28,945 nt of DNA from the IMG/VR virus record IMGVR_UViG_3300005519_000011, positions 1 through 28,945 of that record; one strand, given 5' to 3'. The translations under genes and the position numbers were made by a program. The stretch is from a virus. Shown here piece after piece: positions 5,533 through 27,410 of this stretch (position 1 is its first letter; every line of letters begins with the position of its first letter). A model generated the notes under the pieces. It made no database searches and was not told the DNA's origin. It saw nothing but the letters and a program-made list of their open reading frames with translations.

Positions 5533-5555
5533 AGCCACCTTCGGGTGGCTTTTTT
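5533..5555 (+). terminator. terminator cassette before the coat gene
   Basis: Stem AGCCACC (5533-5539) with GGTGGCT (5544-5550), loop TTCG, then six T. CATTTGAGGG and the coat start codon follow; 19 nt separate the T-run from the ATG at 5575. Confidence 0.85.
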
Positions 5556-5574
5556 CATTTGAGGGTCTGCCCAC

Positions 5575-6900
5575 ATGAAAAGCTTCATCTCCAAAATCCG
5601 CGTGCTGACGCTCGCGGCCATCGCCTTCGTTGTGGCGATCTACCCCATGGCCACCATGGCCAAGGTGGCGGCTCGCCTGTATGAGATGGTGGTGGATGCC
5701 GTCCAGCGACCGCTGCAAGGCGGCATGATCGCTGGCGCAAACACGCTGACCGGCCTGATCCCGACGCTTTACGAGGCGCTGGATGTTGTTTCGCGCGAAA
5801 TGGTCGGCCTGATCCCAGCCGTTTCCCGCAACAGCAGCGGCGCCCGCGCGGCTCTCAATGAATCGATTCTGATTCCGATCACGCCGCCCAGCACGATGGC
5901 CGACAACACGCCGGCCGTGACCGCCCCGAACACTGGGGACCAAAGCATCGGCAACGTGTCGATGACCATCAGCAAGTCGAAGCATGTGCCGATTCGCTGG
6001 AACGGTGAAGAGCAACGTGGCATGAACAACGCTGGCACGTACGGCAAAGTTCTCGTGGAGCAGTTCACCCAGGCGTTCCGTACCCTCGGCAATGCCATCG
6101 AGGTGGATCTGTTCACCACTGCATACCAGAACGCCTCGCGCGCCTATGGCACCGCCGGCACCGCTCCTTTCGGGACCGCCGGCGACCTGTCGGATATTGC
6201 TCAGGTTCGCAAGATCCTCGACGACAACGGCGCGCCCCAGACCGATTTGCAACTGGCGCTCGGCTCTGCCGGCATCGCCAACCTGCGCGGTAAGCAGAAC
6301 GTGCTGTTCAAGGTGAACGAAGCCGGCACGGACGATCTGCTGCGTCGCGGCATGATCGGCGAGCTGGAAGGCATGGCCATTCGCAATTCGGCCGCCATCA
6401 AGGCTGTTACCAAGGGCACTGGCGCGAGCTACACAACTGATACCGCCGGTTACGCAGTCGGCGCCACGCAGATCACCCTCATCACCGGTACCGGCACGGT
6501 GCTGGCAGGCGACACGGTGACATTCGCGGGCGACTCCAACAAGTATGTGGTCGCAACTGGCGTCTCCGCTCCGGGCCAGATCACGCTCGCAGCGCCCGGG
6601 CTGCTGCAGGCGATCGGCACGTCGGCGACCGCTATGACGGTCGGCAATACCGCCACCCCGAACCTCGCGTTCAGCAAGTCGGCAATTCAGCTCATCACGC
6701 GCTCGCCGCAAATGCCGATCGGCCCGGATGGCAAAGCGATGGATATGGCTGACGACGTGATGCAAATCACCGATCCGGTGACCGGCATCGTGTTCGACAT
6801 CGCCGTGTACCGCCAATTCATGCAATTGGTCTACCACGTGCGTCTGGCGTGGGGTACGCAGGCCATCAAGCAGAACCACATCGCCGCGCTGCTTGGTTAA
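5575..6900 (+). CDS. major capsid protein, P22-coat-like, with hydrophobic N-terminal extension
   Basis: A 441-residue coat protein. The region from residue 53 (ANTLTGLIPTLYEALDVVSR) onward matches the P22-coat type, including a beta-rich inserted domain (about 285-365, with GDTVTFAGDSNKYVV) like the P22 I-domain. Such proteins form the icosahedral shell on the HK97 fold. The odd part is residues 1-50: a basic start (MKSFISKIR), a hydrophobic stretch (about 10-24) and a small-residue site, resembling a signal peptide or membrane anchor. The usual family start would be Met51 (base 5725). I keep 5575 because GAGGG precedes it and its distance from the terminator fits the cassette rule. Met51 has only weak upstream purines. 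Confidence 0.85.
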   Translation: MKSFISKIRVLTLAAIAFVVAIYPMATMAKVAARLYEMVVDAVQRPLQGGMIAGANTLTGLIPTLYEALDVVSREMVGLIPAVSRNSSGARAALNESILIPITPPSTMADNTPAVTAPNTGDQSIGNVSMTISKSKHVPIRWNGEEQRGMNNAGTYGKVLVEQFTQAFRTLGNAIEVDLFTTAYQNASRAYGTAGTAPFGTAGDLSDIAQVRKILDDNGAPQTDLQLALGSAGIANLRGKQNVLFKVNEAGTDDLLRRGMIGELEGMAIRNSAAIKAVTKGTGASYTTDTAGYAVGATQITLITGTGTVLAGDTVTFAGDSNKYVVATGVSAPGQITLAAPGLLQAIGTSATAMTVGNTATPNLAFSKSAIQLITRSPQMPIGPDGKAMDMADDVMQITDPVTGIVFDIAVYRQFMQLVYHVRLAWGTQAIKQNHIAALLG

Positions 6901-6950
6901 GCGTCCACGGGCGGCGCAGTCTGGCCGCCCGTATTCACCTCGGAGTGAGC

Positions 6951-7199
6951 ATGGAACTGAAAACCGTGAAGATCGTCTCTCCCGTGACCGATGAAAACCC
7001 ACTGGGTTACATCGTCATCAACGAGACCGATCTGACGAAAGAACACGAGGTCTTCGACGAGGAAGGCGCCAAGAAGGTGGACAAGTCGCTCAGCGTCGCC
7101 GACCTGAAGGCTGCGCTGACCGAAAAGGGTGTGGAAATCCCGGAAGGCGCCAAGAAGGTGGACCTTCAGGCACTGCTGGACGAAGCAAACAAGGGTTAA
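6951..7199 (+). CDS. small head protein with HeH/SAP-like motif
   Basis: An 82-residue acidic protein beginning MELKTVKIVSPVTDEN. The C-terminal half (LSVADLKAALTEKGVEIPEG followed by AKKVDLQALLDEA) has the helix-extension-helix pattern of HeH/SAP-type domains, which bind nucleic acid or partner proteins. The motif GAKKVD occurs twice (about 40-45 and 67-72). I place the start at 6951, with GGAG upstream, because the open frame before it lies inside the coat gene. A GC-rich hairpin without T-run (6909-6930) fills the gap after the coat gene. Position suggests a capsid decoration or head completion role, which is inference. Confidence 0.7.
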   Translation: MELKTVKIVSPVTDENPLGYIVINETDLTKEHEVFDEEGAKKVDKSLSVADLKAALTEKGVEIPEGAKKVDLQALLDEANKG

Positions 7200-7202
7200 A
7201 GC

Positions 7203-7598
7203 ATGCTCACCGATGCCCAACTGACCGATGTGCGGCGTTTCATGGGCTACCCGCTGGCCGGCACGACGATGACGATCACGAATGATCAGGACATCGTCTA
7301 CGGTCGTTTTGGCATGGTGATCATGTCGCTGCACCAGCGTCTGACCACGCTATCGGCGAGCGAAGAGTCGGTGCTGATCAATACGTACCTGACTAACCTC
7401 TATACGCTCGAATCCGCGATTCCTGCTACGAGTGACAACCTCGACACCGAGCAGGCTGCAGTGTGGCGGCACAACGCCAACGAGCAGCGTGATCGTGATC
7501 GTCTTTTTGACTCGTGGCGACGCCGGCTGTGCGAGTTCATCGGCTTTGCGCCTGGCCCGATTCTCGGCGATGGCGGCATCAGCGTAGCAAGGGCCTGA
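7203..7598 (+). CDS. head-tail connector-type protein
   Basis: A 131-residue protein beginning MLTDAQLTDVRRFMGYP, largely helical, with a conserved-looking end (RDRLFDSWRRRLCEFIGFAPGP). I have seen this pattern in proteins just downstream of the coat gene in related phages, where they are usually labelled head-completion or DNA-packaging adaptor proteins. The position of adaptor genes in tailed phages supports that, but no catalytic motif is present. It starts 3 nt after the preceding stop and is followed 1 nt later by the Ntn-hydrolase gene, so the genes are probably translated together. Confidence 0.65.
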   Translation: MLTDAQLTDVRRFMGYPLAGTTMTITNDQDIVYGRFGMVIMSLHQRLTTLSASEESVLINTYLTNLYTLESAIPATSDNLDTEQAAVWRHNANEQRDRDRLFDSWRRRLCEFIGFAPGPILGDGGISVARA

Positions 7599-7599
7599 C

Positions 7600-8025
7600 A
7601 TGACCGTGATCGCGTGGGATGGCAAGACGTTAGCCGCCGACAAGCGCGCCACGTCGGTCGGGCTGGCGCGCACCGTCACCAAGATTCAGCGTCACGGCGA
7701 GAAGTTGCTCGCGATGACTGGCGACTGGGATGTCGCAGCCGAGATTCGCGAGTGGTTCAAGGCTGGCGCCGTGCCGCGAGATTTCCCGGCGAAGGCCCGC
7801 GAGGATCTGGCCTCGTTGATTGTGATCTGCCGCAGCAGTCTAGCGGTGTACAGCACAGGTCCTTTCCCCATTCTGATCGAGTCGGAGAGGGCTGCATTCG
7901 GTTCCGGCCGCGACTTTGCGGAGGCGGCTATGCATCTCGGCTGCTCCGCGATAGAAGCAGTGTCGGTGGCATGCCACTTTCAGACCGACTGCGGAAACGG
8001 CATCGATGCACTGATCCTTAATTGA
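7600..8025 (+). CDS. proteasome/HslV-like Ntn-hydrolase
   Basis: A 141-residue protein with the look of a 20S proteasome beta/HslV subunit: Thr2 would become the N-terminal nucleophile after Met removal, LAADKRAT (11-18) places the acid-lysine pair, TKI (27-29) supplies a second lysine, AMTGDWDVA (39-47) matches the glycine-x-x-x-acid turn, and FGSGRDFAEAAM (106-117) matches the late GSG helix. HslV is about 175 residues, so this is shorter. Genes of this fold occur in some phages; their substrates are mostly unknown. Sitting among head genes, it could be a maturation protease or block a host protease. Start at 7600 with AAGGG upstream. Confidence 0.75.
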   Translation: MTVIAWDGKTLAADKRATSVGLARTVTKIQRHGEKLLAMTGDWDVAAEIREWFKAGAVPRDFPAKAREDLASLIVICRSSLAVYSTGPFPILIESERAAFGSGRDFAEAAMHLGCSAIEAVSVACHFQTDCGNGIDALILN

Positions 8026-8034
8026 GGAAAACCG

Positions 8035-8691
8035 ATGGACGCAGCCAAGCTGCAAGCCAAGATCTACGCGGGCTATGGCAAGTCGGCCAAGCGGATCGGC
8101 TACGTCTATGACGTGTTCCGCCCGGCCAGCGCGGCCGACCCGCTGACCAACAAGGTCGCCAGCCTGAACGCCTCGTTCAACGCCCAAGACTGGACGTACA
8201 CGAAGCCGAACCTACCAGACAAGCCATACTGGTACTGCCTGATCGACGGACGGCTAACTCAGGTCGGCGACTACCTGCAGCGCGGCACGAACCTGCATTT
8301 CATCGCTGGGATGCAGGACGAGTTGCCCATCCTCACGGTGGAGTGCAACGCAAAGGTGTGGGTCACGCGCACGACGACGCCGAGCGGCGTTGGGGCCGTG
8401 GGCTACTCTGGCAAGTGCGCGACAGAAGACACTTATGTGCTCGGTACAAAGGGCGGCGCAGGATGGCCAGCATCGATCCTGTTCGGCGGTCGCACGCGCA
8501 AGCACGATGTGCTGCCGACGTCAGCCGATGAGCATGGCTTTGTGGTCATGATGCCAGCGAGCGTCCCTATCCAGTTCGGCGCGGGTGACATCCTCATCGA
8601 TGACATGGACGTGGCGCGGCGGTTTCAGGTGGCGGGCGCGCAGCGAACCGATCAAGGCTGGAAACTCAACGTCAACGAAGTTCACCCGTAA
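8035..8691 (+). CDS. virion structural protein, neck/connector region
   Basis: A 218-residue protein beginning MDAAKLQAKIYAGYGKSAKR. The first about 110 residues look like an alpha/beta connector domain (YWYCLIDGRLTQVGDYLQRG); the rest is mostly beta. I recognise the general pattern from uncharacterised phage proteins at this place but cannot name a domain. GAGGAAAA lies just upstream of the ATG, a strong ribosome binding site. The next gene starts immediately after its stop (TAAATG). Position between the head genes and the tail sheath suggests head closure or a neck component. Confidence 0.6.
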   Translation: MDAAKLQAKIYAGYGKSAKRIGYVYDVFRPASAADPLTNKVASLNASFNAQDWTYTKPNLPDKPYWYCLIDGRLTQVGDYLQRGTNLHFIAGMQDELPILTVECNAKVWVTRTTTPSGVGAVGYSGKCATEDTYVLGTKGGAGWPASILFGGRTRKHDVLPTSADEHGFVVMMPASVPIQFGAGDILIDDMDVARRFQVAGAQRTDQGWKLNVNEVHP

Positions 8692-9534
8692 ATGGCCGAC
8701 ATTTCAGACGTCTCCGCGGCGCTGGTGACGACGATTGCCGGCATTGTGTACCCGAACGGGACGAGCCAGCCATCGATTACCGGCGCGCCGGTTCTGGTGT
8801 ACAGCGGATGGCCGGATTCTGTGCAGCTGCGCGCGGATCTCGCCGCCGGCAAGATTCACGTGTCGGTCTTTCCTCAGCCGAACATGCTGCGGGTGGTCGA
8901 CTCGAGCATGTCGGACTGGTCGACGCCGTCGGCGCCGGTCAATACCGTGACCCTGACGCTGGCCGGCCAGGCCGTGACGGTCGGCGGCACGGTGAGCACG
9001 CCGCAGAATGCGGCACTGGCGGTCGACAACAAGGCCTATATCTATGCGGTGCAGGCTGGCGACACGCTGGCCGGCATCGCCGCCGCGCTCGCTGCGCTGG
9101 TGAACGTTGACCAGACGGCGACGGCGTCGGGCGCGGTGGTGACAATCCCGGGCGCAAAGTACATCTCGCCGCGCGTTGGCGGCCAGGGTGTCGCGGTGCG
9201 TGAGACGCGCCGGGAGGAGCAGGGCTTTATGGTCACTGTCTGGGCCAACTGCTTCGACCAGCGCGACCCGATTGCTTCTGCGATCAATTCCGCGCTGTCT
9301 GGTATTACTAGACTCACTCTGGCCGACCAGAGCAGCGCCACGCTGCGCTACAAGAGCAGCCGCCAGGACGACAGCCAGCAGAAAGAGGGCATCTACAGGC
9401 GCGATCTCATGTACGCGGCGGAGTTTTCGACGTTCCAGAGCCAGACGCTCACGCAGATCACTGCGACCATCGAGAACGTCAGCGCTGGTCCGTCGCTCGA
9501 TGCGCAATTCCCCATCAAGACCATCGTGGAGTGA
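8692..9534 (+). CDS. tail completion / neck protein with LysM-like insert
   Basis: A 280-residue protein beginning MADISDVSAALVTTIAGIVYP. Its outer parts resemble tail terminator or completion proteins (N-terminal helix, then a beta region with REEQGFMVTVWANCFDQRDP, about 181-199), which cap the tail and join it to the head. A middle insert (about 80-160) contains YAVQAGDTLAGIAAALAA, similar to the first half of a LysM repeat; this phrase also turns up in phage tail proteins without proven sugar binding. It begins directly after the preceding stop and is followed 3 nt later by a 49-residue ORF. Confidence 0.6.
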   Translation: MADISDVSAALVTTIAGIVYPNGTSQPSITGAPVLVYSGWPDSVQLRADLAAGKIHVSVFPQPNMLRVVDSSMSDWSTPSAPVNTVTLTLAGQAVTVGGTVSTPQNAALAVDNKAYIYAVQAGDTLAGIAAALAALVNVDQTATASGAVVTIPGAKYISPRVGGQGVAVRETRREEQGFMVTVWANCFDQRDPIASAINSALSGITRLTLADQSSATLRYKSSRQDDSQQKEGIYRRDLMYAAEFSTFQSQTLTQITATIENVSAGPSLDAQFPIKTIVE

Positions 9535-9537
9535 CCC

Positions 9538-9687
9538 ATGAAACTGGTTGTGAACGTGCCGTTCGGCACCTACAAGCCGGGCGACGAGATCACCGACCAG
9601 GACGCCATCCAGGCCGTGCTGGCCAGTGAGCAGTCCGCATACGTCGTGCAGGTCTCCGACGACGCGCCTCCGAAGGCGAAGAAGTAA
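9538..9687 (+). CDS. 49-residue phage protein
   Basis: A short ORF beginning MKLVVNVPFGTYKPGDEITD and ending PPKAKK. The N-terminal half resembles a small beta domain, the C-terminus is a lysine tail. GGAG sits about eight bases before the ATG, and the gene is 3 nt after the preceding stop and just before a terminator. Short proteins of this style occur just upstream of tail sheath genes; role unknown. Confidence 0.6.
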   Translation: MKLVVNVPFGTYKPGDEITDQDAIQAVLASEQSAYVVQVSDDAPPKAKK

Positions 9688-9726
9688 TCAACCCTCGCCG
9701 CCTGCGCGCGGCATCCCCATCTTTGT

Positions 9727-9747
9727 GCCGCCTCCGGGCGGCTTTTT
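9727..9747 (+). terminator. terminator cassette before the tail sheath gene
   Basis: Stem GCCGCC (9727-9732) with GGCGGC (9737-9742), loop TCCG, then five T. After CGTTTCTCGGAGG the sheath ATG comes 18 nt from the T-run. Confidence 0.85.
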
Positions 9748-9765
9748 CGTTTCTCGGAGGCGCGA

Positions 9766-11298
9766 ATGCCGATCGTCCAGCAGGGCAGCATCAATACGAC
9801 TGCCCTCATCGTCCCGGACTTGTACGTCCAGATTGTTCCGCCGCAGGTGGCGTTGCTCAACGGCGTGCCCACCAACGTGCTGGGCGTCGTCGGCACGGCA
9901 ACCTGGGGACCCACCAACTCGCCGACCATCATCGGCAACATGGCCATGTACGCCCAGGCCTTCGGCGCGATCCAGAATCGCACGTACGACATGGGAACGG
10001 CGGTGGCTGTGGCCGTCCAGCAGGGCGCCAACAACTTCCGCTGCGTGCGCGTGACCGACGGCACCGACACGGCGGCCACGGCGACCGTGCAAACCAACGG
10101 TCTGACCCTGACGGCGAAGTACACCGGCACGCTTGGCAACACTGTGACTGTCGCGCTCGCCGCCGGCAGCGCCGCAAACACCTGGAAGGTGACGGTGGCC
10201 GCGCCGACGCTCAATCCCGAGGTGTTCGACAACATTGGCGCGGGCCTGTCCGGCAACGCGCTGTGGTTGGCCATCGCCGCTGCGATCAACAACGGCACCA
10301 GCGTGCAGCGCGGTCCGTCGCAGATCATCACGGCCGCTGCCGGCGCCAGCACCAGCGCGCCCGTGGCCGCTAGTTTCACTCTGGCCAGCGGTACCGACGG
10401 CGCAACGACGATCTCCGGCTCAGTACTGATCGGCCAGGACACCGTGCCGCGCAAGGGCATGTATGCCCTGCGCAATCAGGGCGTGTCGGTGGCCATGCTC
10501 GCTGACTGCTCGGATTCGACCACGTGGGCGACGCAGGTGTCTTTCGGTCTGTCCGAGGGCATCTACATGATCGGTGTGGGTCCGGCTGGCGACACAATCG
10601 CCAACGCGGTCAGCACCAAGAGCACGGCCGGCATCGACAGCTACGCCTTCAAGTTGCTCTTCGGCGATTGGGTGTACTGGCTCGATACCGTGAACGGTGT
10701 GACGCGCCTGGTGTCGCCGCAAGGCTTTGTGGCGGGCCTGCTGGCCAACCTGTCCCCGCAGAACAGCAGCCTGAACAAGCAGATCTATGGCGTGGTGGGC
10801 ACGCAGAAGTCGTACGCCAACCAGACGTACAGCTCGGCCGAGTTGCAGACGCTGATCCAAGCGGGCATCGACCTCATCACCAACCCGGTGCCAGGCGGCT
10901 CGTACTTCGGTTGCCGCTGCGGCCACAACAGCAGCTCGAACGCGCTCACGCAGGGTGACAACTACACCCGCATGACGAACTACATCGCCAGCACGATCAA
11001 TGCTGGCATGGGCAAGTACGTCGGTCAGTTGCAGTCGGCCACGGTGCGTGCACAAGCGGCAGCCACGCTGTCGAACTTCCTCAGCTCGATGGAGCAGCAG
11101 GGAATGATCGGCGCGGCCAACGGCGGCCCGGCATTCTCGGTGCAGATCGACACCAACAACAACCCGATGAACCGCGTCGCGCTGGGCTATCTCCAGGCGG
11201 ATGTCAAGGTGATCTACCTCAGCGTTATCGAGAAATTCCTCGTCAATGTTGAGGGGAGCCAAGCGACCGTCATCCGCACCAGCACGGCAAACCAATGA
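9766..11298 (+). CDS. contractile tail sheath protein
   Basis: A 510-residue protein with tail sheath features: an N-terminus made for handshake contacts (PIVQQGSINTTALIVPDLYV), the motif LGVVGTATWGPTN (about 44-56) of sheath subunits, a variable beta-rich outer domain (about 110-220), and a conserved C-terminal part (NRVALGYLQADVKVIYLSVI, about 468-487) ending in a beta strand used for inter-subunit contacts. The sheath contracts to drive the tube into the cell and marks this phage as a myovirus. A strong GGAGG precedes the start. Its stop overlaps the start of an inserted HNH endonuclease gene. Confidence 0.93.
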   Translation: MPIVQQGSINTTALIVPDLYVQIVPPQVALLNGVPTNVLGVVGTATWGPTNSPTIIGNMAMYAQAFGAIQNRTYDMGTAVAVAVQQGANNFRCVRVTDGTDTAATATVQTNGLTLTAKYTGTLGNTVTVALAAGSAANTWKVTVAAPTLNPEVFDNIGAGLSGNALWLAIAAAINNGTSVQRGPSQIITAAAGASTSAPVAASFTLASGTDGATTISGSVLIGQDTVPRKGMYALRNQGVSVAMLADCSDSTTWATQVSFGLSEGIYMIGVGPAGDTIANAVSTKSTAGIDSYAFKLLFGDWVYWLDTVNGVTRLVSPQGFVAGLLANLSPQNSSLNKQIYGVVGTQKSYANQTYSSAELQTLIQAGIDLITNPVPGGSYFGCRCGHNSSSNALTQGDNYTRMTNYIASTINAGMGKYVGQLQSATVRAQAAATLSNFLSSMEQQGMIGAANGGPAFSVQIDTNNNPMNRVALGYLQADVKVIYLSVIEKFLVNVEGSQATVIRTSTANQ

Positions 11299-11765
11299 AG
11301 ACGATCCCGCTCGGAAACGGCGGGGAGGCTCTGGTCGATGATGAGGACTGGGCCTCCCTTTCCGTGTTCAGTTGGCATCGGAACGACAGCGGATATGTGG
11401 TTCGCGGCGACAAATCATCCGGTCGCCTTACGCTGGTTCGCATGCATCGCCAGATACTCGGCGCGCAAAAGGAGCAGCACGTTGACCACATCAACGGAAA
11501 TCGCGTCGACAACCGCCGATCGAATCTCAGATTCTGCACCCGTACACAGAACATGTGGAACGCGGGCAAGCATGCCAAATGCACGTCAAAGTTCAAAGGC
11601 GTCTATTGGCTGAAGGCGACGCAGAAATGGCGCGCGAAGATCAAGGTCGGCGGCAAGCATCTGTCTTTGGGATGCTTCACTGACGAGATAGAAGCCGCTC
11701 GCGCTTACAACGCGGCAGCCAAAGAACACTTCGGCGAATACGCTCGCCTCAACCTCATCCCATAG
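11295..11765 (+). CDS. HNH endonuclease with AP2 DNA-binding domain
   Basis: A 156-residue homing-type endonuclease. The HNH core is about residues 50-80: MHRQIL with His51, QHVDHINGNRVDN with Asp64-His65, and Asn77 in RRSNLRFC. An AP2-type DNA-binding domain follows (about 98-150, SKFKGVYWLKATQKWRAKIK then AARAYNAAAKEHFGEYARLN). The ATG overlaps the sheath stop by four bases (ATGA), so translation is coupled to a highly expressed gene. It separates sheath and tube genes, normally adjacent, showing insertion of a selfish element between them without breaking either. Residues were read directly from the translation. Confidence 0.92.
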   Translation: MKTIPLGNGGEALVDDEDWASLSVFSWHRNDSGYVVRGDKSSGRLTLVRMHRQILGAQKEQHVDHINGNRVDNRRSNLRFCTRTQNMWNAGKHAKCTSKFKGVYWLKATQKWRAKIKVGGKHLSLGCFTDEIEAARAYNAAAKEHFGEYARLNLIP

Positions 11766-11773
11766 GTGAAGCA

Positions 11774-12205
11774 ATGCCAATCAGCAATTACTCGGTCGGG
11801 CGCGACTATACGCTGGTCATCCAGACGTCCAATGGCACGCTGCAGCCGAACAAGATCACCGAATTCAAGAGCAAGCAGGATGTGACCGACGTGCGCGTTA
11901 AGCGTCTGGACGGTATCACCGACCATGTGCGCTTTTTCGACGGCTGGAGCGGTGGTTTCAGCATCGAGCGCCAGGACGCCACGCTCGACAACTACTTCGC
12001 GCAGCTCGAGGCCGGCTATTACGCCGGCATCAACGAACAGGCCGCGCAGATTTACGAAACGATCCAGGAAGCCAATGGCGCTGTTTCGCAGTTCCGCTAC
12101 GACGGTGTGCTCATGACCCTGGATGACGCTGGTACGCGCGCAGGGGACGCCACCATCAAACAATCGATCAGCTTCGTGGCCTCGCGCCGCATCAAGGTCT
12201 CGTAA
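11774..12205 (+). CDS. tail tube protein
   Basis: A 143-residue protein beginning MPISNYSVGRDYTLVIQTSN. Its beta-rich make-up and length fit phage tail tube proteins, whose hexameric rings stack inside the sheath. The position, after the sheath (with an HNH gene between) and before the tail assembly chaperone, is the conserved one. AGGTGA lies six bases before the start. Its stop overlaps the next start (TAATG at 12203-12207). Confidence 0.85.
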   Translation: MPISNYSVGRDYTLVIQTSNGTLQPNKITEFKSKQDVTDVRVKRLDGITDHVRFFDGWSGGFSIERQDATLDNYFAQLEAGYYAGINEQAAQIYETIQEANGAVSQFRYDGVLMTLDDAGTRAGDATIKQSISFVASRRIKVS

Positions 12206-16483: not shown

Positions 16484-16508
16484 AGCCCCGCCCAGCGCGG
16501 GGCTTTTT
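16484..16508 (+). terminator. terminator abutting the hub gene start
   Basis: Stem AGCCCCGC (16484-16491) with GCGGGGCT (16497-16504), loop CCAGC, then five T. The hub ATG is only seven bases past the T-run. The stem and loop are base-for-base the same as in the hairpin at 25466. Confidence 0.85.
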
Positions 16509-16515
16509 GTTGCCC

Positions 16516-18703: not shown

Positions 18704-18704
18704 C

Positions 18705-20532: not shown

Positions 20533-20557
20533 AGCCCGGCCCAGCGCCGGGCTTTTT
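20533..20557 (+). terminator. terminator cassette before the tail fiber gene
   Basis: Stem AGCCCGGC (20533-20540) with GCCGGGCT (20546-20553), loop CCAGC, five T. After CATTTCGGAGAAGAG the fiber start (TTG) comes 18 nt from the T-run. The loop is the same as at 16484 and 25466. Confidence 0.88.
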
Positions 20558-20575
20558 CATTTCGGAGAAGAGATC

Positions 20576-22291
20576 TTGGATCGTTCGATCATCTATAGCG
20601 GCCAGGTTCCGCAAACGACCGACCTGCTCACCACGAACAAGCAGACGATGATCGCGCTGGCGAAGCTGTGCAGCGATCTGTTCGGCACCGCAACCTTGAT
20701 CTCTGGCCTGGGTTGCGTCCCGACTTCCCCGGCGTCGATGAGCGTCAACATCAACCCGGGCCAGATCTATCAGCTGACGACGGTCGACGGCACGGCGTAC
20801 AGCGCCATCGCCGCGGACACGACGCACAGCATCCTGAAGCAGGGCATCTTGATGGACGCGCAGTCCTTCGCCCTGACAGCTCCGGGCACGCCCGGCTACA
20901 GCCAGAACTACCTGATCCAGGCCACGTACCTAGACAACGACACCAACAACACGGTTCTGCCGTACTACAACAGCGCCAATCCATCGCAGGCGTTCAACGG
21001 GCCGGGCGGCAATGGCACATCGCAGCCGACCACGCGCGCCGGTCAGGTCTCCATGCAGCTTGTTGCCGGCACCGCAGCCGCCACCGGCTCGCAGACCACC
21101 CCGGCCGTCACGGCTGGGTATGTCGGCTTGGCCGTTATCACGGTAGCGAACGGCCAGAGCACGATCACCGCGGGCAATATCAGTGTCTATCCTGGCGCGC
21201 CGATCCTGCCATCTAGCTTGCTTGCCTCGATCCAGAACGGCAATCTGTCGTATGCGGTCGCCACTGGCACGGCCAACGCGCACACCATCGCCCTGACGCC
21301 TGCGCTCACGGCGCGCGTTGATGGGATGCTCATTCGATACAAGGCGCCTGCAGTGAATAACGGCGCGGTGACGCTGAATGACGGTTTCGGTACCGCCAGC
21401 GTGGTCGGCGCGAATCATGCGGCCCTGCAAGGCAACGAATACATCACGAATGGCGATGCTCTCGTGATGTGGAATAGCTCGATTGGCGGCGGCTCGTATA
21501 TCCTTCTGGAATGCACCGGAGGCGCCCTCCAAATTGCCCCGGGCACGCAGAGCCAGCATGCGGTGCAGTTGGGCCAGGTCGGCCATGGTCAGTGCCGCCT
21601 ATCCGTGGCAAGCGCGACATCCCTGGTACTCAAGCCGTACAACGGGAACAACGTCCTCGTGAACGGCGTTCCCCTCGCACTGCCATCAGCTGGTGTGTCG
21701 GTGAGCAATTCCGGGCTCTCGGCGTCGACGCTCTATTACGTTTATCTGGCGGGAACGACAGCCTCGCCGTCGCTTGTCCTATCGGCGACCGGTCACGTCA
21801 CGGCCTCAAGTGGCGTCGAGGTGATGAGCGGCGACGCCACGAAAACGCTGGTCGGGATGATCGTGACGAATTCGAGCAGTCAGTTTTCCACAAATTCTCT
21901 TTTGTGTGCCAATTGGTTCAATCGCCGGAAGCTACTCGGAAATGCGCTTACGAGTTCGGTTACGACGACATCGACGAGCGCAACGAAGCTGACCACTGCG
22001 CTTGATATATCGTTCCTGTGCTGGGCAGACGACATCCCTCAGCAGTTCATTTGCGGAAATATCACCAACAACACGAACAGCATCTTGACGAATGTTTCCG
22101 GTTACATCGACGGCTCCCAGGCTGGACTGACCCAGAGTTATGCTGGTACAGCAAACTTCGGTGTCCCATACTCTCTGAGCAACGCACTTGGCTTGTCGGA
22201 GGGGATGCACACATCTTCGGTGTATGGGAGCGTCTCGTCTTCGTCGACAGGTACTTTCTCAGCAAACCACAGTGTGATTACGAACGCTTAA
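20576..22291 (+). CDS. tail fiber protein
   Basis: A 571-residue fiber starting at TTG, with GGAGAAGAG upstream. The N-terminal part (DRSIIYSGQVPQTTDLLTTN, then NINPGQIYQLTTVDGTAYSA) is the baseplate-attachment type I know from Burkholderiales phage fibers. The middle carries shaft-like repeats; the last about 130 residues, from about 440, are rich in serine, threonine and asparagine and probably bind the receptor. The sequence becomes less GC-rich from about base 21880, as expected of a tip exchanged by recombination. No separate fiber chaperone gene is seen. The TAA at 22289 overlaps the convergent acyltransferase stop. Confidence 0.85.
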   Translation: MDRSIIYSGQVPQTTDLLTTNKQTMIALAKLCSDLFGTATLISGLGCVPTSPASMSVNINPGQIYQLTTVDGTAYSAIAADTTHSILKQGILMDAQSFALTAPGTPGYSQNYLIQATYLDNDTNNTVLPYYNSANPSQAFNGPGGNGTSQPTTRAGQVSMQLVAGTAAATGSQTTPAVTAGYVGLAVITVANGQSTITAGNISVYPGAPILPSSLLASIQNGNLSYAVATGTANAHTIALTPALTARVDGMLIRYKAPAVNNGAVTLNDGFGTASVVGANHAALQGNEYITNGDALVMWNSSIGGGSYILLECTGGALQIAPGTQSQHAVQLGQVGHGQCRLSVASATSLVLKPYNGNNVLVNGVPLALPSAGVSVSNSGLSASTLYYVYLAGTTASPSLVLSATGHVTASSGVEVMSGDATKTLVGMIVTNSSSQFSTNSLLCANWFNRRKLLGNALTSSVTTTSTSATKLTTALDISFLCWADDIPQQFICGNITNNTNSILTNVSGYIDGSQAGLTQSYAGTANFGVPYSLSNALGLSEGMHTSSVYGSVSSSSTGTFSANHSVITNA

Positions 22292-23271
22292 ATCTTGCCT
22301 GACAGGTGCCCTCTCCGATTCGCCGAGAGGGCATTTTTGAGCAATAAGCACGGGTGCTCGACAAGGCGCCACGAAGCATATGCGGCAGCCAACGTTACTG
22401 CCAGCGTTGCCGCAAAGAGCGGCAGTGGTTTGACAGCAATGCCGTGTCTGACACAAAGCGCAATGATGACTTGTGAGACAGGCCATCCGTAAAGGTAGAC
22501 GCCATAGGAGACATCGGCGGGCAATTTTATCGGTTTGGTGTGCTTGCAAATCGTGATGACAACAATGGGAAGCACCAAGAAGTAGGCCAAGTCTCTGACT
22601 TGAATATCGGAAACCTTTGGCCCAAATATGAAAACACTGCCTCCCAAATCATGAATCCACGTCATGATGGATGGTATGTAGGTGACAACCATAACCGTTG
22701 CCGCAAACGGAAACGCTTTCCTAAGATCAAGTGACTGCTCGTGGATGGCAATCGCTGCGCCTCCGAGAAACAGCATGAACATGGGGGCGATTGCAGTTAT
22801 CGTGCCGGAATCGCGCTGGCCACTGTACAGGGCAAAGATAAGCCATGCCGTGGCAAGGAATGGCATAAACGCTCGTTGCTGAAGCAGGCCGATGACTCCA
22901 AGCGCTGCACAGAGGATATAGCAAGCTGCTTCCCACGATAGCGTCCAAACCGGGCCATTCGAGATGTACGGAATGGGGTTGGTTGTGTACCTATCGAAGT
23001 GTATCCAGAGTGTCTGGCTGACCATGTGTGCAACGATTAGGGCAGGCGCAATTCGCAGCGCACGCTTCGCCAGAAATGACAGCACAGAAGCAGACGCATT
23101 GAAGCTGCGGCAGACCAAGTAGCCGCTAATGCAGAAAAATCCGTGCACGGCCATTGCACCCATGCTGTGGTCATAAATCATCCACTCGACCCCTCCGGCC
23201 AGCGCGAAGGAGTGCGAGTAAATCACAGCGATAGCCAGTAGCAGGCGGGCGGCGTCGAAGTTGTCTCGCAT
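22288..23271 (-). CDS. membrane acyltransferase (O-antigen acetylase-like)
   Basis: A 327-residue integral membrane protein of the acyltransferase-3 family: starts MRDNFDAARLLLAIAVIYSH, with the family motif AVHGFFCISGYLVCRSF (about 41-57), a typical RALRIAP segment (about 70-76), about ten hydrophobic segments, and WRLVEHPCLLLKN near the end. Such enzymes acetylate surface sugars, often O-antigen. Phage copies change the host surface and can block later infection by the same phage. AAGGAAA precedes the start on the minus strand. It faces the fiber gene, overlapping its stop by four bases. It is visibly less GC-rich than the neighbouring tail genes, suggesting separate acquisition. Confidence 0.9.
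   Translation of the reverse strand: MRDNFDAARLLLAIAVIYSHSFALAGGVEWMIYDHSMGAMAVHGFFCISGYLVCRSFNASASVLSFLAKRALRIAPALIVAHMVSQTLWIHFDRYTTNPIPYISNGPVWTLSWEAACYILCAALGVIGLLQQRAFMPFLATAWLIFALYSGQRDSGTITAIAPMFMLFLGGAAIAIHEQSLDLRKAFPFAATVMVVTYIPSIMTWIHDLGGSVFIFGPKVSDIQVRDLAYFLVLPIVVITICKHTKPIKLPADVSYGVYLYGWPVSQVIIALCVRHGIAVKPLPLFAATLAVTLAAAYASWRLVEHPCLLLKNALSANRRGHLSGKI
22307..22338 (+). terminator. tail-operon terminator inside the convergent acyltransferase gene
   Basis: Stem TGCCCTCTC (22307-22315) with GAGAGGGCA (22325-22333), loop of 9 nt, then TTTTT. It sits 16 bases after the fiber stop and so lies in the last codons of the opposite-strand acyltransferase gene: one piece of DNA serves as both coding sequence and terminator. 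Confidence 0.88.
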
Positions 23272-23296
23272 TCGGTTATTTTTCCTTTTGGTGCCA

Positions 23297-23331
23297 ACAA
23301 AATATTGCCCCGCACGTCATAACTGCGGGGC
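23297..23331 (-). terminator. minus-strand terminator between OMP and acyltransferase genes
   Basis: GCCCCGCA (23307-23314) with TGCGGGGC (23324-23331) gives an 8-bp stem and 9-nt loop. On the minus strand AATATTTTGTT follows, so it can terminate the outer-membrane protein transcript before the acyltransferase gene, which may then have its own promoter nearby. Confidence 0.7.
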
Positions 23332-23344
23332 GCGTTATATTAGG

Positions 23345-24007
23345 TCAAAACCGATAGCGTATCAGGATGAGGTCTACCGAGTGCCAAATGGACGGCGCGC
23401 TGTTGTTGCTGGATGGCTTGATGAAAAAGTGCTGGTAAACGAGCGAGACGTTGCCGTATGAGACGGATGCGCCTACCACCGCGCCAGGACGCCAGCCGTC
23501 GGTGCTGGCGACACGCAGGTTGATTGGCGAGGCCGTGGGCGTCGCGTGCCAGTTGCCAACGTCTTCCACCCACGTCGCACGGTGTAGCGTCGGGCCGGCT
23601 TCGATGCCGAAGCGCCACTTGCCGACGTCGTAATGCGGTTCAAGGGTGAACAGGAAAGCCTGGGCATGGCCGGTGCCGCGGAAGTTGGCGAGCGGCCAGC
23701 ATTCGCCGTTGCACCCGGTTGCTGAGGTCGGGTTGTAGTTCTCGTCGCTGGGGGTGGCCAGGCTCTGGGTGTGAATCTGCCCGAGCCATGCCCAATCGGC
23801 GTGCCATGAAATGCCCCAGCGCGGGGCTCGGTACAGGTCGCCGGTAAAGCCGACCTCAAATGCCGGCGCCGTGAGCTGCAACTTGTGCTGGAAGTGCTCT
23901 TGCACCCAGTAGCCGTCTTGTCCTCGGCTGTAGGCCGCACCACCGGCGCCTGCTTCCAGGTGGATCGGCAGCTCGGCATGCGCGACAGCTGCGCAGCCGA
24001 GCGACAT
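23345..24007 (-). CDS. outer-membrane beta-barrel protein
   Basis: About 220 residues from ATG at 24007 (MSLGCAAVAHAELPIH). The body alternates hydrophobic and polar residues (LTAPAFEVGFTGDLYR, WGISWHADWAWLG, FLFTLEPHYDVGKWRFGIEA) and ends SVDLILIRYRF with a C-terminal phenylalanine, the barrel-insertion signal. A phage-encoded outer-membrane protein could mask a receptor or alter the surface. Only an 11-residue hydrophobic head precedes the AHAE cleavage-like site, too short for a normal signal peptide. The frame is open up to 24346, where a strong AAAGGAAC-ATG start exists, but that region is occupied by the HTH gene in another frame. It starts two bases after the HTH stop. Confidence 0.75.
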   Translation of the reverse strand: MSLGCAAVAHAELPIHLEAGAGGAAYSRGQDGYWVQEHFQHKLQLTAPAFEVGFTGDLYRAPRWGISWHADWAWLGQIHTQSLATPSDENYNPTSATGCNGECWPLANFRGTGHAQAFLFTLEPHYDVGKWRFGIEAGPTLHRATWVEDVGNWHATPTASPINLRVASTDGWRPGAVVGASVSYGNVSLVYQHFFIKPSSNNSAPSIWHSVDLILIRYRF

Positions 24008-24009
24008 CG

Positions 24010-24297
24010 CTACGGATGCGGCTCGCCATCCGGCTCCGGCTCGATAACTGCCCCCAGCGACCTGGCCATTTCGTACAGCTGATCGATGCCCGTCACAGGC
24101 CCGCGCGCCAGTGCCAGATTCAGCATGCCGAACATGAGCACGTGAAAGCCCATCTCGCGCTTGTCCTCGTCGGACATGTACTTGTGAAACTGCCTCCCCG
24201 TGGCGACGCCGAAGAGTTCGGCCATTTGCCCGTTGGTGTACTTGAGCGTCTCCTTGAGGCGTCGAAGCTCGTCCCGCGATGGGGGCTGATAGCGCAT
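24010..24297 (-). CDS. HTH transcriptional regulator
   Basis: A 95-residue protein beginning MRYQPPSRDELRRLKETLKY. The helix-turn-helix is about residues 18-38 (KYTNGQMAELFGVATGRQFH), in the manner of XRE-like regulators found in phages, followed by a helical dimer-like region. The start is ATG 24297 with a modest GGA upstream; an open frame extends to a TTG at 24324. It is read from the promoter at 24402-24429, whose palindrome is a likely binding site for it. Directly downstream is the outer-membrane protein gene, presumably in the same transcript. Confidence 0.75.
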   Translation of the reverse strand: MRYQPPSRDELRRLKETLKYTNGQMAELFGVATGRQFHKYMSDEDKREMGFHVLMFGMLNLALARGPVTGIDQLYEMARSLGAVIEPEPDGEPHP

Positions 24298-24401
24298 GGA
24301 TGGCGATTCCAAGAATGCGCGCAAAAGCGCGAAAGGTGCGGTTCATGATGGGTTCCTTTCGGAATGTCGGGCACAGCGGGATGCATAGCCCTGTCAGTCA
24401 C

Positions 24402-24429
24402 AGAATATCACCCCTAGGGTGATTGTCAA
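24402..24429 (-). promoter_or_regulatory. promoter with perfect palindromic operator
   Basis: On the minus strand: -35 TTGACA (24429-24424, consensus), 16-nt spacer, and -10 TATTCT (24407-24402) with an upstream TG giving an extended -10. The spacer is filled by a perfect palindrome, on the plus strand ATCACCCCTAGGGTGAT (24407-24423): arms ATCACCC and GGGTGAT around CTA. An operator in this position would block RNA polymerase; the adjacent HTH gene is the obvious source of the repressor. The half-site TATCACC resembles the lambda operator half-site. Confidence 0.82.
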
Positions 24430-24445
24430 GAACGAGATACCAACC

Positions 24446-24468
24446 GGCCGCCAATGCGCGGCCTTTTT
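24446..24468 (+). terminator. terminator cassette before the holin gene
   Basis: Stem GGCCGC (24446-24451) with GCGGCC (24458-24463), loop CAATGC, five T, then CATTTCTGGGGG and the holin ATG 17 nt after the T-run. No plus-strand gene lies just upstream: the preceding 2 kb is all minus-strand. Confidence 0.75.
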
Positions 24469-24485
24469 CATTTCTGGGGGTCTGA

Positions 24486-24908
24486 ATGTCCGAACCAATC
24501 AGCGGCAGCGCAGCAGCAGGGGCGGCGGGTGCCGCGGCTTTCAAAGCCTTGGGCGGCCCGGCCGCCGTGGCAGGAGGTGCGAGTGTGCTTGCGACGATTG
24601 TGGTGATGGTGATGACGCTGCCGAAAAACCGAAGCGAATGGGCCGTTGCTTTGATCTCGACGGTGGTGGCCAGCCTTTGCGGCGGCGCGGCGGTGATCCA
24701 GTACTTGGGCCTCGCCGGCTGGATGGCCACGACCAACGGGACCATGGCGCTGGGCGGCATCTATTTCTCGTGCGGTCTGCCTGGCTGGACCATCGTGCGC
24801 TGGGTCTTCAACTTCCTGAACAAGCGCAAGGACAAAGACCTGCCCGAGATCGTGGCCGAGCTGGCCGACGATGCGCGAAAGATTACCGCAGGCGGCACAA
24901 ATGGCTGA
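24486..24908 (+). CDS. holin
   Basis: A 140-residue membrane protein with three hydrophobic segments (about 26-45 AAVAGGASVLATIVVMVMTL; 52-77; 86-111), a short N-terminus and a charged C-terminal tail (KRKDKDLPEIVAELADDARK). This is the make-up of class I phage holins, which open the inner membrane at lysis time and release endolysin. It is followed by a GH19 endolysin gene overlapping by eight bases. GGGGG precedes the ATG. Exact family not determined. Confidence 0.82.
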   Translation: MSEPISGSAAAGAAGAAAFKALGGPAAVAGGASVLATIVVMVMTLPKNRSEWAVALISTVVASLCGGAAVIQYLGLAGWMATTNGTMALGGIYFSCGLPGWTIVRWVFNFLNKRKDKDLPEIVAELADDARKITAGGTNG

Positions 24909-25446
24909 GCCCCTTGTCACCGCGGCGCAGCTGCACGCGATCATGCCCCTGGCTGGCGCGCGCGCGGATGTGTTCGCTCCGATCCTCGCTGACGTGATGC
25001 TGTTCCGGCAGATCAATACGCCGACTCGCGCGGCTGCGTTCCTGGCGCAGGTCGGGCACGAGTCTGGCCAGCTGCGCTACCTCCGCGAGATCTGGGGCCC
25101 GACGCCGGCACAGAGCCGCTACGAGGGCAGCGCAGACCTGGGGAATACGCAGGCAGGGGACGGCAAGCGCTTCATGGGGCGCGGCCTCATCCAGATCACC
25201 GGGCGCGTCAACTACGCAGCGTGCGGTGCTGCTTTGGGTCTTGATCTGATCGCCCAGCCCGAGCTGCTGGAAAAGCCTGAGAACGCCGCCGCATCGGCCG
25301 CCTGGTTCTGGGTGCAAAACAACCTTAACCGCTTTGCTGACCGCGGCGATTTCGTCGGGTTGACCCGTGCCATCAACGGAGGAACCACGGGCATCGCTGA
25401 TCGGCGGGCGCTCTGGGAGCGCGCGAAGACCGCGCTACACGCCTGA
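24901..25446 (+). CDS. endolysin, GH19 chitinase/lysozyme family
   Basis: A 181-residue enzyme degrading peptidoglycan. The core shows QVGHESGQLRYLREIWGPTP (50-69) with Glu54 and the second acid Glu63, SRYEGSADLGNT (72-83), GKRFMGRGLIQITGRVNY (88-105) and INGG near the end. These are the hallmarks of GH19-type phage lysozymes. There is no signal peptide, so it depends on the holin. I start at ATG 24901, eight bases inside the holin gene; an earlier frame from 24871 is less likely. A terminator follows at 25466. Confidence 0.92.
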   Translation: MAEPLVTAAQLHAIMPLAGARADVFAPILADVMLFRQINTPTRAAAFLAQVGHESGQLRYLREIWGPTPAQSRYEGSADLGNTQAGDGKRFMGRGLIQITGRVNYAACGAALGLDLIAQPELLEKPENAAASAAWFWVQNNLNRFADRGDFVGLTRAINGGTTGIADRRALWERAKTALHA

Positions 25447-25465
25447 TTCGGTCCACACACAACAC

Positions 25466-25489
25466 AGCCCCGCCCAGCGCGGGGCTTTT
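25466..25489 (+). terminator. terminator cassette after the endolysin
   Basis: Stem AGCCCCGC (25466-25473) with GCGGGGCT (25479-25486), loop CCAGC, four T. Identical to the hairpin at 16484. CATTTCTGGAGGG follows and the next ATG is 18 nt after the T-run. Confidence 0.85.
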
Positions 25490-25507
25490 GCATTTCTGGA
25501 GGGCCGC

Positions 25508-26023
25508 ATGGCCGTCACCGACATTCATGAGCAAGCCCATACGTTCCACGAGGTGGTGGAATTCCCTGGCCACGAAGAACGCACTGAATCGGCTGAATTT
25601 CGCAAGAACAAGCGGGTTCTCGTGAAGCAGCTTGACCTTCCGTGCTGGATTTGTGGATCGCGCGATGCGCGCGAAGTCCACCATCTGCATGAGTGGAGCT
25701 TGTGGCCGGCGCTTGATCCCGACAAGGTGCTCGACACCCTGCATGTTTTCGATCCATATGGCTTCACCCACAAAATGGGTGAGCAGGCCATCGAGTCGCC
25801 GGATGACATTCGCAATCTGCTGGTGCTATGTGGCCACCATGAGATCGACGGAGTTCCTGTGCCGGGAGGTCACCACCGCGGTGTCAATCTGGGCGTGCAT
25901 GATCTGACCATGCCGACATGGCTGGCGCTCAAGTCCGCGCGCAAAGGTGTGGATGTGACGAAGGCTATCGGCCACGCGCAGAACGAAGACAAGAAGCTCC
26001 GCGGGACCAAACAGAAGGGCTAA
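25508..26023 (+). CDS. HNH-like zinc protein
   Basis: A 171-residue protein. CWICG (46-50) with a downstream LCGHHE (107-112) gives a zinc site, and VHHLHEW (57-63), Asn103 in IRNLLVLCGHHE and the trailing histidines follow the plan of HNH nucleases. The end (VNLGVHDLTMPTWLALKSAR) does not resemble one. I think it is an HNH-fold nuclease or a DNA-binding relative; it is one of four such genes in the window. GGAGGG precedes the ATG. It lies between the endolysin and the larger zinc-module endonuclease. Confidence 0.65.
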   Translation: MAVTDIHEQAHTFHEVVEFPGHEERTESAEFRKNKRVLVKQLDLPCWICGSRDAREVHHLHEWSLWPALDPDKVLDTLHVFDPYGFTHKMGEQAIESPDDIRNLLVLCGHHEIDGVPVPGGHHRGVNLGVHDLTMPTWLALKSARKGVDVTKAIGHAQNEDKKLRGTKQKG

Positions 26024-26024
26024 A

Positions 26025-26069
26025 ATGTCGGAAGCCCGCAGGTGCTGGTAACACCGCGCGGGCCTCCTA
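26025..26069 (+). promoter_or_regulatory. structured leader with eight-codon ORF before the zinc-module endonuclease
   Basis: Stem GCCCGC (26034-26039) with GCGGGC (26058-26063) encloses an inner stem GGTG (26041-26044) with CACC (26052-26055), loop CTGGTAA. There is no T-run. The same bases contain an ORF of eight codons and a stop (26025-26051, MSEARRCW). CTCCTA (26064-26069) could pair with TAGGGAG (26084-26090), the next gene's ribosome binding site. A regulatory leader is inferred. Confidence 0.5.
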
Positions 26070-26096
26070 ACCACCATCTGCTATAGGGAGCAAAAG

Positions 26097-27128
26097 ATGG
26101 CTGCGTCAGATTTTACGCCCATTGGATCGCGATTCTCTAGACTCGTTGTTACGAGCGAGTATTGGAGCGACAAGTTCTACATTCGCCGCGTCCGCTGCAT
26201 TTGCGATTGCGGAAAGCAGACGGAGGCGTCTTGCCAGCAGCTTGTCAAAGGCATCAAGAAGTCGTGTGGGTGCCTGAAGGGCGAAGTCGGCAAGCGACTG
26301 GCAGAGGAGCGTATTGCCCAAGGCATCGTTCGATCCGTCGAGCCAGGGCAGAGATTTGGACGACTGGTCGTCACAGGGCAAATCGAGCTCCGCAATAATG
26401 GCGCTCGGTACGTGCAATGTGCTTGCGATTGCGGCGGCATGAAGTCGATCGGCGTCAATCAGTTGCGCTCAGGAAAGACTCGTTCGTGCGGATGTTTGGT
26501 CCGCGAAAGCAACGATAGAGTTCACCCAGTCCCGATCGGACAAAGATTCGGAAGCCTTGTCGTCCTGGGTAAATCTGGTAGCCGCGCAAGTGGCCGCATG
26601 GTCGAAGCCCAATGCGATTGCGGAAATATCACGATCACAAGTATCAATAACTTGCGTAGCGGACACACCGGATCATGTGGGTGCCTTAAACTGCAGGCGA
26701 TCCAAAATCGAGCAATTCACGGGCACACGCGCAAGAACGGGTTCAATCGCACGTATGCGGTCTATCGCGATATGCGAACTCGTTGCGAGAATCCGAACTA
26801 TCGTGAATTTCACCTTTACGGTGGACGCGGGATAACCGTCTGCGAACGTTGGCGTCAAGGCTATGAATTCTTTCTCGCAGATATGGGCGAGCGTCCTCCC
26901 GGCATGACTTTGGAGCGTGATCGTGTCAACGAAGGGTACTCTCCTGAAAATTGCCGCTGGGCGAGTCCAGCGGAACAGTCCGTCAACAAGCGAAACAATG
27001 TTTTTATTGAGCACCAAGGACGTCGCATGACTGTCTCGCAATGGGCCGCCGAACTTGGGCTCAATGCAAAGAGGATGTACTACGGCGTAAAGCAAGGCTG
27101 GCCACCTGAACGGCTGCTTTCAAAATAA
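26097..27128 (+). CDS. endonuclease with three zinc-ribbon modules and HNH-like domain
   Basis: A 343-residue protein. Residues about 9-60, 83-134 and 147-197 are three copies of one module: a GxRFxxLVV strand, a CxCDCG knuckle (e.g. CICDCG 34-39, CACDCG 108-113, CDCG 173-176) and SCGC (56-59, 130-133, 193-196), each probably binding one zinc and DNA. The nuclease part follows (about 215-300): MRTRCENPNYREFHLYGGRG, VCERW, DMGERPPGMTLER and ENCRWASPAEQ. The last 30 residues look like a helix-turn-helix (MTVSQWAAELGLNAKRMYYG). It resembles phage homing endonucleases. GGGAG precedes the ATG, behind a structured leader. Less GC-rich than neighbours. Confidence 0.8.
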   Translation: MAASDFTPIGSRFSRLVVTSEYWSDKFYIRRVRCICDCGKQTEASCQQLVKGIKKSCGCLKGEVGKRLAEERIAQGIVRSVEPGQRFGRLVVTGQIELRNNGARYVQCACDCGGMKSIGVNQLRSGKTRSCGCLVRESNDRVHPVPIGQRFGSLVVLGKSGSRASGRMVEAQCDCGNITITSINNLRSGHTGSCGCLKLQAIQNRAIHGHTRKNGFNRTYAVYRDMRTRCENPNYREFHLYGGRGITVCERWRQGYEFFLADMGERPPGMTLERDRVNEGYSPENCRWASPAEQSVNKRNNVFIEHQGRRMTVSQWAAELGLNAKRMYYGVKQGWPPERLLSK

Positions 27129-27135
27129 CTCATCT

Positions 27136-27159
27136 AACCCCGCTTCGGCGGGGTTTTTT
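27136..27159 (+). terminator. terminator cassette after the zinc-module endonuclease
   Basis: Stem AACCCCGC (27136-27143) with GCGGGGTT (27148-27155), loop TTCG, then six T. AGGAG and the next ATG follow, 23 nt after the T-run. Confidence 0.88.
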
Positions 27160-27182
27160 ATTAGCCATTTCCAGGAGCAATC

Positions 27183-27410
27183 ATGAACAAGACTTCCGCT
27201 ATCGCAACAGGTGGCGTTGCCATCTCCACGGCAACGCTGATGCCGGCCGTTGAATGGGCACTCGGCCTCATCTTTCACGTTCCCGTGCCGGCCAGCGTTT
27301 CGTCCCTCATCGCAGGCGCCATCGTTGCCGGCGCGCATGCGGCGCTGAACGTCGCCAGCGCCAAGGCGGCAGCCAATTCGAGCGCCGCGCCCTCCGCGTC
27401 CGGGCAATAA
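27183..27410 (+). CDS. small membrane protein, second holin-like
   Basis: A 75-residue protein beginning MNKTSAIATGGVAISTATLM. It has two hydrophobic segments (about 7-31 and 37-58, SVSSLIAGAIVAGAHAALNV) and an alanine/serine-rich tail, the profile of short class II holins or antiholins. It belongs to the lysis region but is separated from the first holin by two endonuclease genes. AGGAG lies eight bases before the ATG. Holin, antiholin and other small membrane proteins look alike at this size, so I leave the exact role open. Confidence 0.6.
   Translation: MNKTSAIATGGVAISTATLMPAVEWALGLIFHVPVPASVSSLIAGAIVAGAHAALNVASAKAAANSSAAPSASGQ

Follow-up and report, generated by a model that had tools for sequence, protein, structure and literature searches.

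Terminator-like stem-loops are already known from the late operons of lambdoid phages, and they are annotated in the public records of HK97 and P22. In the HK97 record seven forward-strand features are marked as 'putative' terminators; by their own coordinates, the following late gene begins 5-13 nt further on. The P22 record describes a stem-loop as 'similar in location to stem-loops in phage HK97 and phage lambda'. When T-tailed hairpins are scored in these genomes, those of lambda end 20, 25, 29 and 17 nt before E (capsid), J, lom and stf, respectively, five in HK97 end 17-23 nt before annotated starts, and one in P22 ends 18 nt before orf69. By the same rule no hairpin precedes an annotated start in the late regions of Mu, PB1 and 186, and P2-like contigs have essentially none. 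Since the layout is present in lambda, HK97 and P22 but missing, or all but missing, from PB1 and from the activator-controlled phages P2, Mu and 186, it goes with Q-type antitermination in this small sample of well-studied phages. Q proteins are encoded at equivalent positions and fall into families that have no mutual sequence similarity (PMC7171158); Q21 narrows the RNA exit channel, leaving terminator hairpins unable to form (PMC7171158).

Related arrangements occur elsewhere. Gene 11 of T7 begins 18 nt after Tphi, and in LUZ24 a terminator directly follows the capsid gene; in both, as in the DNA described here, the next start codon lies ~18-24 nt beyond an intrinsic terminator, but these virulent phages have a single terminator and T7 has its own RNA polymerase. 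Two further systems have terminators within a long mobile-element operon that a processive antiterminator overcomes. In Tn916 the terminator was shown to insulate and antiterminator-mediated read-through was shown experimentally, canT being, unlike protein Q, most likely an RNA (PMC11658703), and in the Caulobacter GTA cluster a terminator was bypassed experimentally by the antiterminator GafZ, which is described as having no similarity to Q (PMC11150451). The available portions of these two papers report no hairpin-to-start spacing for canT or GafZ (PMC11658703, PMC11150451).

The DNA analysed here (the window) is a 28,945-base IMG/VR virus record, which PHROGs profiles identify as the late region of a myovirus. 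Matches include the small and large terminase, portal, scaffold, a P22-coat-5-type capsid and tail sheath, followed by baseplate, fibre, endolysin and several HNH endonucleases; the tail tube and tape measure genes were assigned by position. This prophage contig is most closely related to prophages found in Ralstonia and further Burkholderiales. The features considered below are as follows.

1..26, + strand: first late terminator, tR'-like, AAGCCCGCCACTGAGCGGGCTTTTT; the promoter-leader block ends and the window starts here
134..154, + strand: hairpin and T-run before ATG 172 of a 57-aa ORF; L457 has an equivalent second hairpin
4624..4651, + strand: hairpin and T-run between the portal and scaffold genes, also present in L006
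5534..5574, + strand: hairpin, T-run (TTTTTTCATTT) and Shine-Dalgarno, then the major capsid gene at 5575
5575..6900, + strand: major capsid protein gene, P22 coat-protein-5 type, phrog_283
9697..9712, + strand: decayed upstream hairpin copy, stem kept and T-run lost; an intact tandem pair in many relatives
9727..9765, + strand: hairpin, T-run and Shine-Dalgarno, then the tail sheath gene at 9766
9766..11298, + strand: tail sheath protein gene, phrog_23
16485..16515, + strand: hairpin and T-run before ATG 16516 of a baseplate hub/tail protein
20534..20575, + strand: hairpin, T-run and Shine-Dalgarno, then the tail-fibre gene at TTG 20576
24446..24485, + strand: hairpin, T-run and Shine-Dalgarno, then a phrog_1024 gene at 24486, upstream of the endolysin
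25467..25507, + strand: hairpin (stem identical to 16485), T-run and Shine-Dalgarno, then an HNH endonuclease gene at 25508
27138..27182, + strand: hairpin, T-run and Shine-Dalgarno, then a 75-aa ORF at 27183

The product of the last of these ORFs resembles a membrane protein and may be a holin. The hairpin at 20534 has a counterpart in Burkholderia phage Magia, where a terminator is annotated at the equivalent place, 14 nt upstream of the fibre gene.

An independent scan found nine strong T-tailed hairpins on the window + strand (134-150, 4624-4646, 5534-5549, 9727-9742, 16485-16503, 20534-20552, 24446-24463, 25467-25485 and 27138-27153), where dinucleotide-preserving shuffles of the window gave a mean of 0.27 and at most 2 in 100 shuffles. 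With a looser consensus scan there was no clear excess over shuffles (12 against 12.6; 17 against 10.9), and the signal therefore resides in the strong hairpins. A tenth hairpin (2-23) lies at the very edge of the window; it and the hairpin at 4624 were absent from the original prediction. The window hairpins have the form of intrinsic terminators, a GC-rich stem-loop directly abutting a T-run.

Eight of the nine end 12-29 nt upstream of a start codon, for which the probability of chance placement before one of 33 starts is ~3e-13. The exception, at 4624, is followed after 21 nt by the ATG of a 29-codon ORF and after 88 nt by the scaffold ATG at 4735. Counted from where the T-run ends, the start codons follow after 17 (134), 19 (5534), 18 (9727), 7 (16485), 18 (20534), 17 (24446), 18 (25467) and 23 nt (27138), so that the distances quoted originally are all exact when the T-run is excluded; counted from the stem's final G-C pair the distances are, in the same order, 21, 25, 23, 12, 23, 22, 22 and 29 nt. 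Because the hairpin at 16485 leaves no room for a Shine-Dalgarno sequence, the start at ATG 16516 is uncertain.

The spacing also holds in related phages, as the original prediction had proposed to check. Among 159 related loci and the window there are 355 distinct T-tailed hairpins on the coding strand, and 53% of these are followed 18-28 nt past the stem by an ATG-initiated frame, compared with 9% of hairpins lacking a T-run and 2% of T-tailed hairpins on the other strand. The consensus 3' of the stem in these relatives is TTTTTTCATTT, then a Shine-Dalgarno sequence, then 5-7 nt and the ATG. We found no paper describing this hairpin-to-start spacing in the literature searched, subscription journals aside.

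A near-constant distance had been taken to suggest that the hairpin works as a special unit with the ribosome binding site. That argument is not supported, as the interval equals the T-run (TTTTTCATTT, ~10 nt), the Shine-Dalgarno sequence and the usual 5-7 nt placed end to end. Both flanks of the hairpin are near their minimum and the T-run ends where the Shine-Dalgarno sequence begins; the constant interval therefore needs no extra principle, and is the shortest arrangement of T-run, Shine-Dalgarno sequence and start. Ribosome footprints also put at ~20 nt the distance that keeps a hairpin clear of a ribosome engaged in initiation or termination, and the minimal 17-19 nt leader leaves the hairpin just outside the initiating ribosome.

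The hairpins are far from evenly distributed among genes. We counted, for each gene family, T-tailed hairpins lying 10-34 nt before the start. Such hairpins precede 60% of sheath starts (56/93 relatives by the strict rule, 69 when relaxed), 45% of tail tube starts and 18% of capsid starts (12/65 relatives strict, 17 relaxed), as against 0-10% for portal, terminase, neck, baseplate and other genes, or ~1.5% when these other late genes are pooled. Taken together, sheath, tube and capsid account for 112/255 starts and other late genes for 13/857 (Fisher p 4e-66, a value that overstates independence because the sequences are related). Thymine frequency at the first five positions past the stem is 0.8-0.96 for sheath hairpins and 0.08-0.27 for the rare hairpins before other genes, and when hairpins are picked with no T requirement, a T-run follows those of sheath, tube and capsid and is absent after the rest. 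Capsid, sheath and tube are also mostly the genes that have a real intergenic gap, most others overlapping or touching their upstream neighbour.

This bias towards abundant virion proteins is one reason to consider that the hairpin is an expression signal, protecting the processed 5' end of late mRNA (or the preceding 3' end) and insulating the ribosome site, with the U-tract aiding S1 docking, to yield an excess of these proteins. The distance from hairpin to start in relatives (median 22 nt, IQR 20-24, SD 3.1) is likewise tighter than that from the preceding stop to the hairpin (median 23 nt, IQR 19-31, SD 28.8), and the region 24-13 nt before sheath, tube and capsid starts is U-rich (0.35-0.53, against mostly 0.1-0.26). 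However, the modal stop-to-hairpin distance is also ~20-30 nt, so packing alone explains much of the constancy; the T-run abuts the stem exactly in the fashion of a terminator; the sheath hairpins of relatives are often doubled in tandem, which suits termination; and lambda also has such hairpins in front of lom and stf, neither of which encodes one of its main virion proteins. We regard an expression signal as a possible, if somewhat doubtful, primary role, one kept alive by the capsid, sheath and tube bias and partly compatible with an antiterminated operon.

A second alternative is that a fixed-sequence regulatory site, either a protein-binding repeat or a promoter, merely resembles a terminator. 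It is true, as had been noted, that the stems at 16485 and 25467 are identical and that three window hairpins share the loop CCAGC. Among the relatives, however, dozens of unrelated stems occupy the same place, with 43 different stem sequences before the sheath gene and 41 before the tube gene; since these differ, it is the structure and the T-run that are conserved, not the sequence. T-tailed hairpins also show a strong strand bias in relatives, and there is no enrichment of -10 boxes. On comparison of the stem sequences a fixed site is already disfavoured, and we consider it highly improbable. Promoters within the hairpin-start intervals or just 5' of the hairpins were also rejected: a sequence scan found no sigma-70-like promoter in any such interval of the window, and -10-like matches upstream of the hairpins are rarer than in shuffles. 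Because the intervals lack promoters and the upstream flanks lack -10 enrichment, the downstream genes must be reached by read-through, in agreement with the original prediction.

How polymerase might read through is suggested by the DNA immediately upstream. An IMG/VR contig (L482) is 100% identical to window positions 1-4926 and extends 760 nt further upstream, where it contains a leader, a TTGTAA-17-TATCCT promoter and the 3' part of a phrog_19609 gene. All close relatives have this block in common (TTGYAN-17-TATYCT, a strongly conserved ~110-nt leader, then a terminator), and base 1 of the window lies at its end. The terminator lies 74-87 nt past the start of the conserved core in 22/25 loci scored, and the remaining 3/25 have a hairpin at the terminator position that the strict rule overlooked. 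Promoter, short leader and first terminator are thus arranged as in a Q operon. The leader hairpin varies in sequence by clade (GCATCC...GGATGC in some, ATGCACCCC...GGGGTGCAT in others), and MAFFT misaligns it between clades. The sole Rfam overlap in the leader is a sub-threshold Trp_leader match in L449; a put-like antitermination RNA missing from Rfam may still be encoded there. A conserved AGATTACTG-like element is also seen past the -10 in part of the loci.

Searches with the Pfam Q families, both lambda-type and 21-type, were empty in 22 relative records, and a candidate antiterminator was therefore sought by position. In the closest full relative (L440) the gene order is replication initiator, DnaB helicase, NinB, HNH, a 141-aa phrog_19609 protein and NinX. 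The phrog_19609 gene sits between replication/nin-type genes and terminase, just 5' of the late promoter, a location that Q proteins have in common (PMC7171158). PHROGs assigns this family no function, a PDB sequence search with the candidate gave nothing meaningful, and its members match neither PF03589 (lambda Q) nor, in the 19 members searched, PF06530 (Q21). An AlphaFold2 model of the L440 protein, of moderate confidence (mean pLDDT 58.9), is nevertheless predicted to adopt the Q21 fold. The seven best Foldseek PDB matches are all phage-21 Q chains, with probabilities of 0.97-1.00 for 6/7, and VIA-align against Q21 gives Z 8.0-9.9 over 96-121 residues, the next unrelated rows (sigma region 4) scoring 6.6. 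The likeness to Q21 of phage 21 (6P18, 6P1A, 6JNX) thus lies in a predicted fold of ~120 residues and in gene position, while identity is 14-18%. From fold and position we infer that phrog_19609 is a Q-type antiterminator. Among the relatives, only the closer ones from Ralstonia/Burkholderia were found to carry the family. In more distant relatives with the same hairpins, Pfam Q profile searches gave no Q.

The window region shares with the lambda, HK97 and P22 late operons the placement of a hairpin and T-run 17-29 nt ahead of certain late genes, among them capsid gene E in lambda, and would also share the order Q, promoter, leader, tR'. It differs in having more hairpins, a different host group and sheath and tube as the main targets, and in a Q-like protein that, unlike those of lambda, HK97 and P22, is missed by the Pfam Q models. 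Antitermination, one of the three options raised at the outset alongside re-initiation and 5'-end protection, has strong circumstantial support from the candidate gene of predicted Q21 fold, the conserved late leader and the first terminator at window base 1.

We consider it probable that the hairpins are intrinsic terminators in a single late operon under Q-type antitermination. Transcription would start at the late promoter just upstream of the window and proceed through the conserved leader to the first terminator (1-26, the tR' equivalent). There polymerase would acquire the Q21-like protein, whose gene lies directly upstream, and in this modified state it would pass the first and all later terminators. 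Unmodified polymerase, from stray host or intra-prophage transcripts, would be halted before the most heavily translated virion genes, which would keep the lysogen silent. Blocking stray transcription in this manner is probably the purpose of the terminators, and may be why they have been retained; such a role was demonstrated for the insulating Tn916 terminator (PMC11658703), and the Caulobacter GTA terminator that GafZ bypasses fits it (PMC11150451).

Alternatively, no antiterminator would be involved and the hairpins would be leaky terminators, each setting a further step in expression along the late operon, in the manner of T7 Tphi. The position of Tphi has its parallel here, and the tail operon of phage 186 contains tI, which is annotated as a partial terminator. 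Against this, 9-10 serial terminators would leave little distal transcription, the hairpins precede rather than follow the most needed genes, and a Q-like gene is present; we think stepwise leakage unlikely.

For the antiterminated operon, silencing of the lysogen is not the sole use of such a terminator, since T7-like phages and LUZ24 are non-lysogenic and each have one. Pure silencing alone also does not explain the strong capsid, sheath and tube preference, and it is possible that the hairpin additionally stabilises mRNA or insulates the ribosome binding site. In its fullest form, which we put forward only tentatively and hold to be rather unlikely, this would make the hairpin-(U)n-Shine-Dalgarno sequence before high-copy virion genes a dual-purpose cassette: a terminator for unmodified polymerase and, after antitermination, a 5' stabiliser or ribosome-site insulator that sets dosage. 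It would work together with a structured late leader RNA and with phrog_19609 as a Q family so far unrecognised.

The present analysis adds a quantified rule for the spacing, a preference of these hairpins, whose stems include dozens of unrelated sequences, for the genes of the three most abundant virion proteins, a candidate Q family and the conserved leader. A large, uncharacterised group of myoviruses from Burkholderiales and other bacteria thereby gains a late-operon model that can be tested, together with a candidate antiterminator that sequence profiles miss. The rule that a terminator ends ~22 nt before the capsid, sheath or tube start can aid annotation of late operons and of true starts. 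Should the hairpins raise expression as well, expression design would have in them a set of compact natural insulators.

Inverted repeats 5' of translation starts at several genes are also a feature of the SAS/ESAS elements of cluster K mycobacteriophages. We rejected these as the same element: SAS is a fixed 13-bp sequence at non-structural genes, and its authors saw little evidence that it forms an RNA hairpin, whereas the window-type stems are variable, precede structural genes and lack the fixed GGGATAGGAGCCC adjoining the start.

An origin of the motif in host genomes was likewise rejected, as nine of these (4-9.5 Mb) gave 0-3 pattern matches each, some of them inside prophage. Within 226 kb of host DNA, 5/35 T-hairpins were followed by an ATG at 15-32 nt.

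L482 and L130, two IMG/VR contigs from the single metagenome 3300003762, each match a stretch of the window at 100% identity, and on this sequence identity they and the window are one phage population.
Window 1-4926: stretch matched by L482
Window 6363-10747: stretch matched by L130

Between the late promoter and the first late terminator lies a structured, strongly conserved late leader, which is about 110 nt long and precedes that terminator in L482 (reverse strand) and in the related loci L487, L480, L489 and L496. The leader hairpin keeps its structure across clades while its sequence changes, and the leader has no Rfam match above threshold. It could be a put-like RNA, or else simply the region where Q is loaded. 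The Q position in phages of Ralstonia/Burkholderia is occupied by phrog_19609, which is predicted to have a fold like that of Q21, the phage 21 antiterminator, and whose members also include Magia gp68 and KS9 gp47. Predicted fold and gene position make phrog_19609 a candidate new antiterminator family.
L440 18817-19242: phrog_19609 gene (protein P0001)
L482 5354-5683, minus strand: phrog_19609 gene

Tandem duplicate hairpins precede the sheath gene in many relatives (L086, L088-L092, L095, L100, L163, L166); in the window (9697-9742) the upstream copy retains its stem but no longer has a T-run. At the sheath-tube junction, 45% of relatives carry a terminator hairpin, which is absent from the window, where an HNH endonuclease gene sits.
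Window 11295-11765: HNH endonuclease gene between the sheath and tube genes

The 29-codon ORF ahead of the scaffold gene may be a short leader ORF or a remnant; the related locus L006 has a longer frame at its counterpart.
Window 4624-4755: hairpin, then 29-codon ORF, upstream of the scaffold gene

Finally, a tRNA 3′ end and the terminator after it, at 28852-28910, are probably the prophage's right-hand attachment site with flanking host DNA.
Window 28852-28876: tRNA 3′ end (GGTTCGAATCCC...ACCCCA)
Window 28890-28910: terminator
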